From: Clostridia bacterium
GTDB taxonomy: Bacteria; Bacillota; Clostridia; Oscillospirales; Acutalibacteraceae
Direction of reading: 5' to 3'
DNA length: 48,316 bases
Assembly: GCA_017397105.1 (NCBI GenBank)
Contig: JAFQKF010000008.1
Span: 1 to 48,316, forward strand
Both the position numbers and the translations under genes were made by a program. Shown here piece by piece: positions 36,238 through 41,171 of the stretch; position 1 is the stretch's first letter, and each line of letters opens with the position of its first letter. The notes beneath the pieces are model-generated. The model saw nothing but the letters and a program-made list of their open reading frames with translations, was not told the origin of the DNA and did not search any database.

Positions 36238-36455
36238 AAAAAGGTGCAGTTACACAATCAAATGGGACGGCCTTGAGACCGCGGTACCACCCAAATTGCG
36301 CAAATGCACCACTCAATACGTTAACGCCGCATACGCCGCCGCTCATCGCAGCAGATGCTCAGGGATGGCTGCCTCAGCCGGAGGTTTGCAGGTATCTCAG
36401 CAAATGCCCCGCTCTCTGTAAAACACGGAAAAGGCTCTTCCCATCACAGCAAAAG
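36238..36455 (-). promoter_or_regulatory. T-box riboswitch (Ala, specifier GCA) controlling alaS
   Basis: On the minus strand: stem I base GATGG (36445-36441) pairs with CCATC (36368-36364), AGAGAG and GCTGAGA motifs follow in the upper part, and the specifier GCA (36372-36370) sits just above the base helix, an alanine codon. The T-box bulge sequence GGGTGGTACCGCGG is at 36292-36279. The terminator pairs GGTGCA (36310-36305) with TGCACC (36248-36243) followed by TTTTT; it includes part of the antiterminator side, so the two are exclusive. Family knowledge: uncharged tRNA-Ala stabilises the antiterminator and turns alaS on. Confidence 0.9.
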
Positions 36456-36469
36456 TATTAAATTAAAAA

Positions 36470-38665
36470 TCAGATTCCTGATTCTTCAAGATAAGTGGCT
36501 CTTGCCCAGCCGTAACTATCTTCATACTCAAAGCAAATCCACTTTTTACCGTTATCATCCTTATACTCAGCAACAACTGTAACGATTGTTCCCTCGTCAA
36601 TTTCACCGAGGAGAGTATCGTCACCGGTTGCACCGGGCTCAGTTCTTACGTTGATTGTACTGTCAACAACCTCATAAGAACCGGTAAGAGGAGTTGCGTA
36701 TTCATAAATAGCATCAAGGCTGCCGGGCTGAGGAGTAGTTTCGGGCAGTTCAAAGGTATCAACAGCCTGACCTACGCAAAGGATGCCCCATACGCCGTTC
36801 TTGCAAGCGATGAATACACCTGCATCGCCCTGAAGAATTGAATCATACTCAAAGTTAACAATCACGTTGCCGGAAACGTCAACAACGCCCATTTTGCCGC
36901 CCTTCTTGACTGCTACCATGCCGTTATCAACAGCAAGGCAATAGTCAACCATTGCGTACTGCTCGCTTGAAAGACCGTCGTTAACAGCTTCGTAGAGGCA
37001 ATCGATAACAAGCTTGTCACTCTGCTGGGAAACATAGCCCCATTTACCTGTTTCAGCATCTCTTACAGCTGCATAGCCGTTGTGATAACGGTCACGTTCG
37101 CTGTACTTTCTCTCATTAAGCTCATCACCTGTTGAAGAGTGAGTTGCATGAACGGTTGAGCTTACGGTGTAATCAACCATTGAAATCTCATAAAGGCTTC
37201 CGCCTGCTTCAATTCTTACAAGGTAGTGGTAGCTGTCACGCTGGGTGTAATCCCTGCCGTGAGAGCATCTGACGAACTCAACGTAGTTGGGCTCAAGAAC
37301 AACATTGCCCTGATAATCCATAAGTCCGTATTTGCCTGTTTCAGCAGACTTGAAAATACAGCACTTCTCGTTGAAATAGGAAATTTCATCGTAATCGGGG
37401 AAAAGCTCGGGAGTCCAGAGCGATTTAACTGCTTCACCCTGCTGAGTAACTGCAACGTTACCGGTTGTTGTTTCTTCGTTCTTATCCTTATTCATAATAA
37501 GAATACCCGATACAGCAACGGCAATAACAAGGAGAGAAATAAGAACTATATATATAATTGTTTTGGGCTGAAGCTTCTTTTTGCCGCTTTCGCTATCATC
37601 CTGAGCTTCATCGCTCTCAGGCACAGACACCTGAGCAGGAGCCTTTGCCTTGCCGATATAAACACCTGATGATTCCTGAGAAACGGGCGCATCAGGCTGT
37701 GCATTATCGGATGCAGTGCCAAGCTGAACAAGGCCCAAATCGATTTCTTTGAAGATATCCTCGCCGCTTACAACTGCCTGCGAGGGCTTTGTTTTATTAT
37801 CAATGATGATGGTTCTGGGTTCTTCATCCTCCTGAGCGTTTTCTTCCTCAGCGGATTCAGCGGGCTGAGCATCCTGCTCTGCAGAATCTTCAGCATCAGA
37901 CTTAACGTCATCATTTGTTTCCTCAGCCTTTGCTTCGGGCTCTGCAGCAGGCTCTTCTTTTGCAGGCTCTTCAACGGGCTGCCCGGGAGCTGCCTCAACA
38001 ACCTTGTCCTTGTTTTCGTAAGCATCAATTGCAAAAATGAAAACACTTCTTACAAGCTCGTTGTTAATCACCACTTTAGAAGCTGAGGACTGGAAAATCC
38101 GTGTAAGAACGGGAAGATTTTCCTCTGCAAGAGATTCATCGTTCCTGGGAAGAAGCGCAACAATGCTGGTTCTTGCCTTTGCAAGAAGAGAATTAACCGT
38201 GCTTTCGGAAACGCTGAGGAACTTTGCGATAAAGTCGGTAGGCATTCCTACGTAATAATGAAGAACGGTAACTGCTCTCTGCTCTTTGGGAAGGCAGGCA
38301 ACGCCCTCTTCAATCCTCTTTGAAAGAGATTCATCAGCAAGAACAGATACGGGCAAAAACTCTGATCTGAATGCAGAAACGTCACCGTCAGCATCAGAAT
38401 ACACAAAATTCTGAGTTTCTTTGTATGCTCCGGCAACCTTCTGCTTAATCCAAGCTTCAAAAGCTTCGGGACGCTTAAGCTTGGTTAAAGTGCAGAATGC
38501 CTGCGCATATGCCTTTTTGAGAACTTCCTGTGCCTGTGCGTCGTCTGCGGTTAACTTAAGTGCAAGATAATAAGAGCTTTTTAAAGTTCTGGAATAAAGC
38601 TTTGCAAAGGAATCTTCGTTTCCTTTCTGCGCTTCAAGGACAAACTGAATTAAATTCTCACTCAC
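36470..38665 (-). CDS. Membrane-anchored sigma-70/ECF-like protein fused to WG-repeat and SH3b ectodomain
   Basis: 731 residues, GTG start at 38665 with a GGAAG site. Order of parts: sigma region-2-like helices (about 10-90), a helix-turn-helix region-4-like domain (about 115-172, with LPKEQRAVTVLHYY and LSVSESTVNSLLAKAR), a long acidic Ala/Glu/Pro-rich linker (about 220-365), one membrane helix (369-391), at least four WG-type repeats (about 440-630: GKYGLMDYQGN, GKWGYVS, GKMGVVDVSGN, GVWGIL), and a C-terminal SH3b domain (about 665-728, INVRTEPG, GWARATYL). Seen: the whole fusion without stop or frameshift. Inference: cytosolic sigma domain outside regulated by an ectodomain that may bind cell wall. 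No anti-sigma gene is adjacent. It has its own strong promoter. Confidence 0.85.
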   Translation of the reverse strand: MSENLIQFVLEAQKGNEDSFAKLYSRTLKSSYYLALKLTADDAQAQEVLKKAYAQAFCTLTKLKRPEAFEAWIKQKVAGAYKETQNFVYSDADGDVSAFRSEFLPVSVLADESLSKRIEEGVACLPKEQRAVTVLHYYVGMPTDFIAKFLSVSESTVNSLLAKARTSIVALLPRNDESLAEENLPVLTRIFQSSASKVVINNELVRSVFIFAIDAYENKDKVVEAAPGQPVEEPAKEEPAAEPEAKAEETNDDVKSDAEDSAEQDAQPAESAEEENAQEDEEPRTIIIDNKTKPSQAVVSGEDIFKEIDLGLVQLGTASDNAQPDAPVSQESSGVYIGKAKAPAQVSVPESDEAQDDSESGKKKLQPKTIIYIVLISLLVIAVAVSGILIMNKDKNEETTTGNVAVTQQGEAVKSLWTPELFPDYDEISYFNEKCCIFKSAETGKYGLMDYQGNVVLEPNYVEFVRCSHGRDYTQRDSYHYLVRIEAGGSLYEISMVDYTVSSTVHATHSSTGDELNERKYSERDRYHNGYAAVRDAETGKWGYVSQQSDKLVIDCLYEAVNDGLSSEQYAMVDYCLAVDNGMVAVKKGGKMGVVDVSGNVIVNFEYDSILQGDAGVFIACKNGVWGILCVGQAVDTFELPETTPQPGSLDAIYEYATPLTGSYEVVDSTINVRTEPGATGDDTLLGEIDEGTIVTVVAEYKDDNGKKWICFEYEDSYGWARATYLEESGI

Positions 38666-38740
38666 TTTGGTTCCACTTCCTGTCTGATAAAATTTTATAT
38701 TTGACCCTATAAATCCATTTTAATGATTAGTTAGTAACAT

Positions 38741-38767
38741 ATTATACCAGAAAGGGAAAAATGTCAA
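38741..38767 (-). promoter_or_regulatory. Promoter of the membrane sigma fusion gene
   Basis: On the minus strand TTGACA (38767-38762), then TATAAT (38746-38741) at 15 bp, or TAATAT two bases further at 17 bp. It lies between sigE and the fusion gene, so the fusion is not only read through from spoIIGA-sigE. Confidence 0.7.
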
Positions 38768-38786
38768 GTGAGCTTTATTAATATTA

Positions 38787-39485
38787 TTATACCTCTTTTT
38801 TCATTCTCTCGATTATTCTTTTTTCAAGGCGTGAGATATAGCTTTGTGATATGCCCAATATATCCGCCACTTCCTTCTGCGTGTGCTCCTGAGTGCCGCC
38901 GATTCCAAAGCGCATTTTCATGATTGTTCTTTCACGTTCTTCAAGCGAATCAATAATGCGGTACAGCCTTTTCTTCTGGTCTTCGAACTCAAGGTCTCTG
39001 TAGACGTCATCAGGCTCACTTCCAAGGACATCGGAAAGAAGCAATTCATTACCGTCCCAATCAATATTAAGCGGTTCATAGTATGAAACCTCAGCCTTTG
39101 ATGAATTGGTTTTACGCAGATACATAAGAATCTCATTTTCAATACATCTGGATGCATAGGTTGCAAGCTTGATGTTTTTTGTTGGGCAAAAGGTGTTAAC
39201 GGCTTTTATGAGTCCGATTGTACCGATGGAAATCAAATCCTCTATCTGTATGCCCGTACTCTCAAATTTTCTTGCTATGTAGACCACAAGGCGCAGATTG
39301 TGGACAATCAGCGTTTCTCTTGCGGTTACGTCACCGTCCGAAAGCCTTGACATCCATACGTTTTCTTCGTCCTTTGAAAGCGGCGGCGGCAGAGTATCGG
39401 GACCATTTATGTAATCAACCTCTATCCCTGAAAAATGCGCTTTTATCCTTGCAACAATCAAAATCAGCTTACCTTTTAAACTCAT
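38787..39485 (-). CDS. sigE: Sporulation sigma factor sigma-E (pro-sigma-E)
   Basis: 232 residues. N-terminal pro-sequence (about 1-28, ending near GPDTLPPPL), region 2 ([12 protein letters not shown] ... [31 protein letters not shown]), and region 4 ([27 protein letters not shown]). Family knowledge: the mother-cell sigma factor, made inactive and cut by SpoIIGA after asymmetric division. It overlaps the end of spoIIGA by 17 nt. In most Clostridia sigG follows; here the membrane sigma fusion follows instead. Confidence 0.96.
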
Positions 39486-40356
39486 AATTCTTCACCTCAT
39501 AATTAATTGATTCAAACACCGAAGTACCTAACAGCACATCGAAATCACCGGTAATTCTTTGTTCACTGACAGCGATGTAAACGTCATTTACAGTATGCCA
39601 TTTACCGGCGTCAAAAACCTTGATACAATCGCACTTGAAAGACTTGAAAACGCCTGCGTTTTTTACGGTTGAATAAGGAATCAGCCTGAATTTTTCCTTT
39701 GAGTGTATGCTTTGCTCTGCATCTTCAAAAAACCGTTCAAAGCCCTCAGGTATTATCGGCAAAACTATTTTTTTATCAACAATAACTGCAGGATTTCCGG
39801 AAAAGCTTTCCCTGAGATTGCATCCGGTATCATATAGCGCTTTCGCTTTCAAATCCACGTTGTTTTTAGAAATAATAATTTGATATATGGTATTCGCAGG
39901 TATTTTTCTCTTTGTGAGAAAGGATATAAGGCTGAATACCGCATAACAAACAACCGCACTTAAAAGCAAATCCCTTATGCCTACGTCAAAATATACAACT
40001 CCGTTTTTATAAAGAATACTGTTTGGAAACAGTTTATACCACATTGCAAACATCAGCCCGGCAAAAATAAAATTCGCCATAAAATATGCCGCACAGCATT
40101 TGAAAAACCACCTGTGACTTTTAAATCCGAATGCAACCGCAACAATAATAATCAAAGCCGATGCTTTCAGGATGAACGCAACCGAAGCACGCATATCAAC
40201 GAGTATTATCAGCGAAAATAATCCGCCTGAAAAACAAGCAATAATCAACCGCCATGCGCTGATTTTTGTTTGCAGCAACGCGGCGCTTGCACGCAACAGC
40301 AAATAATCAATTATTACGTTTGTCACTATCAGAATATCCAGATATATTATTTGCAT
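39469..40356 (-). CDS. spoIIGA: Sigma-E processing peptidase SpoIIGA
   Basis: 295 residues. Five membrane helices in the first ~145 residues, then a cytosolic aspartic-protease half with the motif YDTGCNLRE, catalytic Asp176. Family knowledge: SpoIIGA dimerises at the septum on a signal from SpoIIR and removes the sigma-E pro-sequence. A GGGGTG ribosome binding site is 6 nt before the ATG. Confidence 0.96.
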
Positions 40357-40375
40357 CTTTTCACCCCTGAAATGA

Positions 40376-40409
40376 ATTATATATCCGACAGCACGGTAAT
40401 TTTGTCGCT
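40376..40409 (-). promoter_or_regulatory. spoIIGA promoter with Spo0A-box-like sites
   Basis: On the minus strand a -10 TATAAT (40381-40376) is preceded, 21 bp further, by GCGACA (40408-40403). Two 0A-box-like motifs are present: TTTGTCGCT on the + strand (40401-40409), over the -35 position, and TGTCGGA on the minus strand (40390-40384). Family knowledge: the Bacillus spoIIG promoter also has an over-long spacer and Spo0A boxes at the -35 region. Each motif deviates from TTTGTCGAA/TGTCGAA, so support is moderate. Confidence 0.5.
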
Positions 40410-40441
40410 TTTAAAAAGCAAGCGAAAATTTTTCAAAACGA

Positions 40442-40470
40442 TTGTAGTTAACGAAATAAAAGTATATAAT
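40442..40470 (+). promoter_or_regulatory. Promoter of the cytosolic PHP gene
   Basis: TTGTAG (40442-40447), 17-bp spacer, TATAAT (40465-40470). A GAGGTGAT ribosome binding site follows before the ATG at 40491. It is divergent from spoIIGA. Confidence 0.7.
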
Positions 40471-40490
40471 TCAATTGAGGTGATACACAG

Positions 40491-41171
40491 ATGAAAAAAT
40501 TCCTTTTCGAAACTCATGCTCACACTTCAGAAACAAGCCCCTGCGGCACCGTAGATGCAAAGACGGTTGTTGAGCATTACAGAGAACTCGGTTACAACGG
40601 TGTGGTTATAACGGACCACCTTTCGGCAGATAATTTCAGGCGCTTCGGTAAGTCGGCACCGGATGAAAAGGCTGATTTTTTCCTTGGCGGTTACCGTGCG
40701 GCAAAGAAATGCGAAACCGAGGACTTTAAAGTAATTCTCGGTGCAGAGATCAGATTCACCGATGACCCCAGCGATTTTCTTGTTTACGGATTCAATGAAG
40801 ATTTTCTTTATGAACACGAGCTTGATAAATTCAGGGATCTTGAAGAATTCAGACCATTTGCTGATGAACACTCACTCGTTGTTTTTCAGGCTCATCCGTT
40901 CAGGGTAAATATTCAGGTGCAGGATCCTGAACTCCTTGACGGTATGGAGATTTACAACTCTCACCCTAACCATAATTCCAGCAATGATATTGCACTCGCA
41001 TGGGCCGAAAAATACTCCTTGCGTTTCATAGCAGGCTCTGATTACCACGGACAGAACTGTAAAATCCCCGGTGGAATTTATACTGATGAACTCATAACGG
41101 ATTCCCGCAATCTCTGCAATATTCTTTTAAGCGGAAACTACGAGGTAAAAACCGATAAAACCGTAAAATAA
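40491..41171 (+). CDS. PHP-domain phosphoesterase (cytosolic)
   Basis: 226 residues of the PHP family without signal peptide. Metal motifs: ETHAHTSETSPC (His9, His11), VITDH, a Glu in GAEIRFTD, a QAHPFR histidine, and GSDYHG near the C-terminus. Family knowledge: PHP proteins are metal-dependent phosphoesterases; histidinol phosphatase, nucleotide-phosphate and RNA phosphatase activities exist, and no other histidine gene is here, so the substrate is unknown. It is a monocistronic gene with its own promoter and terminator. Confidence 0.88.
   Translation: MKKFLFETHAHTSETSPCGTVDAKTVVEHYRELGYNGVVITDHLSADNFRRFGKSAPDEKADFFLGGYRAAKKCETEDFKVILGAEIRFTDDPSDFLVYGFNEDFLYEHELDKFRDLEEFRPFADEHSLVVFQAHPFRVNIQVQDPELLDGMEIYNSHPNHNSSNDIALAWAEKYSLRFIAGSDYHGQNCKIPGGIYTDELITDSRNLCNILLSGNYEVKTDKTVK

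Follow-up and report, generated by a model that had tools for sequence, protein, structure and literature searches.

A gene on the minus strand of the window (the whole analysed stretch, 48,316 nucleotides of a Clostridia bacterium contig), which occupies positions 36470–38665 with its stop codon included, encodes what appears to be a single-pass membrane protein, and we give an even chance to the reading that its ECF sigma fold has ceased to be a polymerase subunit and become a module for protein interactions. Judging from its residues, the protein is probably not a working sigma factor, and we lean slightly towards an action through a protein partner, for which an anti-sigma-like element would be a tentative candidate. 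We infer the fold, the topology and the absence of transcription activity. One-chain ECF sigma factors with a membrane tether have been described, and so has sigma mimicry; a combination of the two was not found in the open-access literature.

Domain architecture of the chain

The 731-residue chain is read as a single open frame from 38665 to 36470, beginning with a GTG start codon, and all of its parts lie on the minus strand. A sigma region-2-like domain (residues 1–88; 38402–38665), delimited by NCBIfam ECF models and residue columns and carrying a replaced clamp motif (Glu47, Lys50 and Lys51), is followed by a sigma region-4-like helix-turn-helix (residues 117–172; 38150–38317), where Asn158 and Leu160 replace basic residues and Pfam recognizes Sigma70_r4_2 (PF08281) at residues 117–166 (E = 3.9e-9, above its cut-off). 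The orthologue alignment then delimits a conserved segment (residues 176–218; 38012–38140) with the pattern LPVLTRIF...VR..F, beyond which an acidic, variable linker (residues 219–366; 37568–38011; net charge −25 by charge count) leads to a single membrane helix (residues 373–391; 37493–37549; Kyte–Doolittle score 3.05). The ectodomain comprises a WG-repeat region (residues 426–640 by our own boundaries; 36746–37390), matched by WG_beta_rep (PF14903; E = 1e-11, above its cut-off), and an SH3b domain (residues 665–731; 36473–36673), matched by SH3_3 (PF08239) at residues 670–727 with E = 3.1e-5 and 24.5 bits, slightly below the 27-bit cut-off. No zinc finger, carbohydrate-binding domain or receiver domain was matched by Pfam in this protein.

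The first-pass annotation had proposed this combination of a sigma-like part, linker, helix, WG repeats and SH3b domain in one chain, and Pfam, NCBIfam and the hydrophobicity profile bear it out. The architecture recurs across the genus, so the fusion is not due to chance. Indeed, WG repeats are recognized by Pfam in all 35 orthologues scanned and SH3_3 reaches E ≤ 0.1 in 33 of them, while solved SH3-type chains are matched by the orthologue profile. The sequence KKKLQPK directly precedes the hydrophobic helix, and since the N-terminal side of the helix is lysine-rich and the WG and SH3b parts follow it, the most likely topology is N-in/C-out, which would leave the sigma part in the cytoplasm.

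The gene had also been credited with a strong promoter of its own. A candidate housekeeping promoter, TTGACA-17-TAATAT or alternatively TTGACA-15-TATAAT, is indeed present at 38739–38767 on the minus strand by its match to the consensus, and points weakly in this direction, but 14 promoter-like sites occur within 36300–40600, compared with 7.6 ± 2.7 expected.

Sigma homology and replaced contact residues

NCBIfam ECF models span residues 15–172 (TIGR02983, E = 3.9e-17; the best 25 of 67 are all below cut-offs), so that both sigma halves are homologous to those of ECF sigma70 factors, and the significant match to sigma regions 2 and 4 on which the first-pass annotation had staked its reading is present. 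A profile built from 35 orthologues matches the solved SigW chain over both regions (E = 2.3e-10) and solved SigE chains from position 33 onward. Compared by hhalign with other tethered ECF proteins, the orthologues score 99.8% probability (E = 1.6e-29, 217 columns), and by this measure the protein has a large class of tethered ECF proteins as relatives. Pfam recognizes Sigma70_r4_2 at E ≤ 0.1 in all 35 orthologues scanned, and Sigma70_r2 at the same limit in seven of the 35 (best 6.1e-4), against 20 of the 22 further tethered proteins that were scanned (best 2e-15); for the window's protein there is no Sigma70_r2 row in Pfam at an E limit of 10. An annotation as "sigma factor" drawn from region 4 alone can mislead.

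Residues were compared between 40 orthologous sigma domains, defined by at least 100 bits in phmmer to the sigma part of the window's protein (lowest 108, best other row 82), and 65 further frames, each 400 amino acids or longer and with an ECF-like part, chosen regardless of the residues compared. A truncated orthologue (L120, from G188) was excluded from the 66 long frames, and the orthologous loci were taken from 41 of the 42 orthologue-bearing genomes (the G190 copy was left out), 40 of which yielded a sigma domain.

Gln50 is found in one of the 40 orthologues versus 58 of the 65 other long ECF frames, Asp or Glu at position 51 in none versus 55, Asn79 in one versus 50, Lys or Arg at position 158 in none versus 61, and Lys or Arg at position 160 in none versus 55. 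The region 2.2 signature D-x-x-Q-[DE] of ECF factors for the β′ clamp is mostly replaced by E-x-x-K-K, with Lys at position 50 in 36 orthologues (Ser in two, Gln and Arg in one each) and at position 51 in 31 (Asn in six, Gln in three). The basic recognition-helix residues of region 4 give way to Asn (34), Asp (three), Glu (two) or Thr (one) at position 158 and to Leu (26), Val (nine), Ile (three) or Phe (two) at position 160. We take the Gln-Glu pair at positions 50–51, which is present in the solved SigW and SigE chains, to face the β′ coiled coil (clamp), and positions 158 and 160 of the region-4 helix presumably face the DNA. Among 21 tethered rows picked by hand, Gln50 is kept in 17, Asp or Glu at 51 in 19, Lys or Arg at 158 in 20 and at 160 in 19, in a selection that, together with seven solo rows, was made with some sequences already seen and includes four known divergent rows. 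Position 50 looks looser in short ECF rows, where Gln50 is present in eight of 13 and one of the misses is a cut-off tethered protein.

Misalignment was rejected as the cause of the motif loss, as the alignment of 21 orthologues runs through the motif as far as Trp72 free of insertions and deletions, with Leu63, Pro66 and Phe69 in register. The loss of these residues argues against polymerase binding, short of proof given that position 47 is acidic in 39 of the 40 orthologues and that Trp72 (34), Arg130 (30) and Thr156 (36) are largely kept. Positions specific to the orthologues include Leu28, Lys29, Lys50, Phe57, Cys58, Glu70, Tyr81, Pro142 and Asn158. We note that Cys58, within the region-2-like domain, is present in 39 of 40 orthologues and lies outside the five commonest residues of the tethered set; Gln75 is likewise present in 39 of 40, and also in three of 21 tethered proteins.

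By mean pairwise identity, the sigma2-like domain is the best conserved part (0.59), followed by the WG region (0.53), the sigma4-like domain (0.51), the SH3 domain (0.39) and the linker (0.21, with 47% gaps across orthologues). Median dN/dS is 0.089 for the sigma2-like domain, 0.092 for WG, 0.157 for the sigma4-like domain, 0.167 for SH3 and 0.274 for the linker, from 15–23 pairs each; these belong to 23 of 595 pairs chosen by a sigma-domain dS of 0.1–1.2, and are non-independent with dS near saturation. The low dN/dS contradicts a decaying sigma domain, which was considered and rejected, and by these estimates the sigma-like domain is under purifying selection.

Occurrence and neighbourhood in the genus

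A survey of genomes for the same fusion, as the first-pass annotation had advised, recovers it throughout the genus: among the matches listed, an orthologue (best match at E ≤ 1e-40) is present in 42 of 45 genomes, and in all 15 with a completeness of 90% or more and a contamination of 5% or less, while 44 of 45 have a match at E ≤ 1e-5. Many of the surveyed genomes are incomplete. The genomes without an orthologue are G157, with no match among those listed, G173, with a best match of 8.9e-13, and G165, where the best match is 3.4e-17 and the sigma-type and WG/SH3-type matches fall in separate frames. Nearly every genome of the genus carries the gene, which leaves co-occurrence uninformative about a partner. 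A search for related loci gave a single one, in a goat-rectum Clostridia metagenome-assembled genome, where the same protein matches over residues 1–247 with the best segment 100% identical, and the plasmid collection yields two weak sigma-only matches.

In all 35 loci that extend far enough downstream, clustering of open reading frames places alaS just after the gene, directly in 31 and with one called frame in between in four (in one case the second half of a split copy); the remaining five of the 40 loci end before the position of alaS. The upstream context differs between species, so alaS is the constant neighbour. A spoIIGA-cluster gene, with or without sigE, is next, next but one or next but two upstream in 11 of the 40 loci, the window among them, an FtsW/RodA/SpoVE-type gene is directly upstream in nine, and an ftsZ gene lies within five genes in four; ftsQ-type genes are also among the neighbours in several species. 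The earlier suggestion that the gene sits where sigG is often found holds in part: the order spoIIGA-sigE-X, with the genes for SpoIIGA and SigE just upstream, is seen in this clade, but other species have FtsW-type or FtsZ genes upstream instead. A replacement of sigG was rejected, as a sigG above the NCBIfam cut-off is encoded on another contig (L002; NF006071, E = 1.3e-124).

Downstream, the clustered neighbours are alaS and three gene clusters that by eye resemble HIT, phosphoribosyltransferase and ComEC-like genes, and no anti-sigma factor was seen among them when they were read by eye. A T-box leader lies upstream of alaS at 36260–36456 on the minus strand; with 84.4 bits it falls short of the gathering score of 93 (E = 4.8e-19). 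The called 937-residue alaS frame starts within this leader, so its called start is too early. An operon with alaS was set aside as a functional clue, since alaS has its own T-box leader. In G170, the orthologue (L111, 896–3317, minus strand) is split into two overlapping frames of 388 and 428 residues, a split that is either real or an assembly error.

Possible function, relatives and origin

In the reading that we prefer, the WG and SH3b ectodomain, which probably faces the cell wall, would sense or bind the envelope, and the sigma-like domain, on its long, flexible, acidic tether, would hold or release a sigma-recognizing protein such as an anti-sigma-like element. The switch would be the envelope sensor within the same chain; the identity of the partner and the partner switch are speculative. 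With degenerate polymerase and promoter contacts that appear to be kept by selection, the domain has the features of a sigma mimic and can be likened to that of PhyR. According to PMC8103513, the sigma-like domain of this alphaproteobacterial protein has degenerate polymerase- and promoter-contacting regions and titrates NepR. PhyR, as portrayed there, is switched by a phosphorylated receiver domain, whereas the present protein is membrane-tethered and has no receiver domain in Pfam.

A structural role is an unlikely alternative: the protein would serve as an envelope scaffold whose sigma fold docks by a basic face (Lys50, Lys51, Lys62, Lys64, Arg65, Lys74 and Lys82) on anionic lipid, on the acidic linker of its own chain or on a complex of cell division or of the cell wall. 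Residues 44–84 have a mean net charge of +2.85 in the 40 orthologues versus −2.0 in 58 intact tethered proteins, a group defined partly by the scored residues themselves, and the charge of the linker, the ftsW-type, ftsQ-type and ftsZ neighbours in several species and the SH3b and WG ectodomain would suit such a scaffold. However, solo ECF proteins are also basic over residues 44–84 (mean +1.25, 12 rows), the upstream neighbourhood varies and alaS alone is constant, and a single face shared by the basic residues is an assumption.

The first-pass annotation favoured a sensor and an active sigma output in one chain, and it is quite improbable that the protein is such an active tethered ECF sigma factor, released by proteolysis, whose polymerase contacts have merely diverged. 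The homology over residues 15–172 and the order of parts, which is that of other tethered ECF proteins of the same genomes, speak for it, as does the precedent of tethered ECF sigma factors such as ECF52 SCO4117 and IutY (PMC8999054, PMC5826349). Against it stand the replacement of the clamp motif and the loss of the basic recognition-helix residues across all 40 orthologues, so that the claim of an active output does not pass one of the refutation tests that the first-pass annotation had set for it. In addition, the window's genome has four further tethered rows (two frames of L040, L041 and L042), all of which keep Gln50, Lys158 and Arg160, although two of them have Asn at position 51. As to the cleavage near the membrane that had been envisaged, the protease 16 kb away does match Peptidase_M50, but nothing was found that ties it to this protein.

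ECF48, ECF52, ECF53 and IutY are, in the accessible parts of PMC8999054 and PMC5826349, ECF sigma factors with membrane-bound C-terminal extensions, and they share with the present protein an ECF sigma part, a membrane helix and a further module in one chain. They are treated in those parts as working sigma factors, whereas the present protein has lost the signatures for polymerase and promoter; the same parts make no mention of the WG or SH3b modules that form the ectodomain here. ECF52, which PMC8999054 describes as exclusive to Actinobacteria, combines a zinc finger with a carbohydrate-binding domain. Of the zinc finger, helix and carbohydrate-binding module of ECF52, only the membrane helix is present in the window's protein.

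Membrane-bound one-component DNA-binding regulators are exemplified by ToxR and CadC, and a regulator of this kind, using the region-4 helix-turn-helix without polymerase, is the least likely reading, as the recognition of Sigma70_r4_2 in every orthologue scanned is offset by the replacement of both basic residues in all 40. The fallback of the first-pass annotation, that the sigma part lost polymerase binding and only binds DNA or a partner, is thus supported by sequence as regards the polymerase and disfavoured as regards DNA.

ECF-like domains in long frames are encoded by the same genomes and by many others in the family and order; the median start of the most hydrophobic stretch in the long frames examined is residue 273, and 55 of 57 pass a loose hydrophobicity threshold, with fewer passing a stricter one. 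At L040, L041, L042, L045, L046, L047 and many further loci, an ECF sigma-like part and a hydrophobic segment share one chain with C-terminal parts of various kinds; some genomes encode several such proteins, and most of the 65 examined retain the sigma motifs. Those at L040, L041, L042, L047 and L157 have a homologous sigma part followed by a hydrophobic segment, and differ in keeping Gln50 and the region-4 basic residues and in their C-terminal parts, which in eight of 22 other tethered proteins scanned are BspA-type leucine-rich repeats. The intact proteins at L157 also carry a similar segment, GVPVLTRIL by eye, after sigma4. A near-universal, conserved and envelope-linked pseudo-sigma beside tethered paralogues that keep most of the motifs would amount to a natural experiment in the turning of a sigma factor into a signalling domain.

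In a quick tree with long branches meeting, computed with seven trait columns removed from 115 of 119 distinct sigma rows (L165, L120, L056 and L057 were dropped as truncated, low-scoring or odd in the alignment), all 40 orthologues fall into a single clade (SH-aLRT 99), separate from the group with intact tethered proteins at an open fork with support 83. Nested within that intact group (support 96) is a pair from another genus, L055 (1789–4206, plus strand), which has an LRR_5 C-terminal part, and L162 (2952–5615, minus strand), both without Gln50 and both region-4 basic residues (three of four features). Their position suggests a second, separate loss of sigma features. We would put forward, tentatively, a membrane-tethered sigma decoy that evolved from one-chain tethered sigma factors, in which the envelope sensor would present the inhibitors of sigma factors with a dead sigma domain and so set the sigma factors free, with L055 and L162 as a second degenerate lineage in the family.

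A protein of a third genus (g15), L156 (5414–7765, plus strand), joins a sigma-like part to a membrane helix, recognized by eye, WG repeats and an SH3 domain, and beyond the SH3b domain it carries a further, terminal helix-hairpin-helix domain (HHH_3, E = 7e-19). Its sigma part shows no sigma region in Pfam at E ≤ 0.01, is recognized by the orthologue profile (E = 2.2e-18), keeps one of the four features and sits on a long branch in the tree; apparently the same gene is found on two contigs of G014. No further protein with sigma-like and WG/SH3 parts was seen among the matches listed in searches of the family (349 genomes) and the order (394 genomes), where the best two candidates per genome were scored in the order search and three and up to eight in the family searches. 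L043 (2400–3620), L044 (2092–3384) and L048 (1922–3172) encode proteins in which an N-terminal membrane helix is joined to a WG/SH3b part and the cytoplasmic sigma-like domain is lacking. They occur in three genomes of the genus, the window's included, each of which also encodes the fused protein, and their ectodomains are related to that of the fused protein (phmmer E = 1.7e-19 to 2.7e-29).
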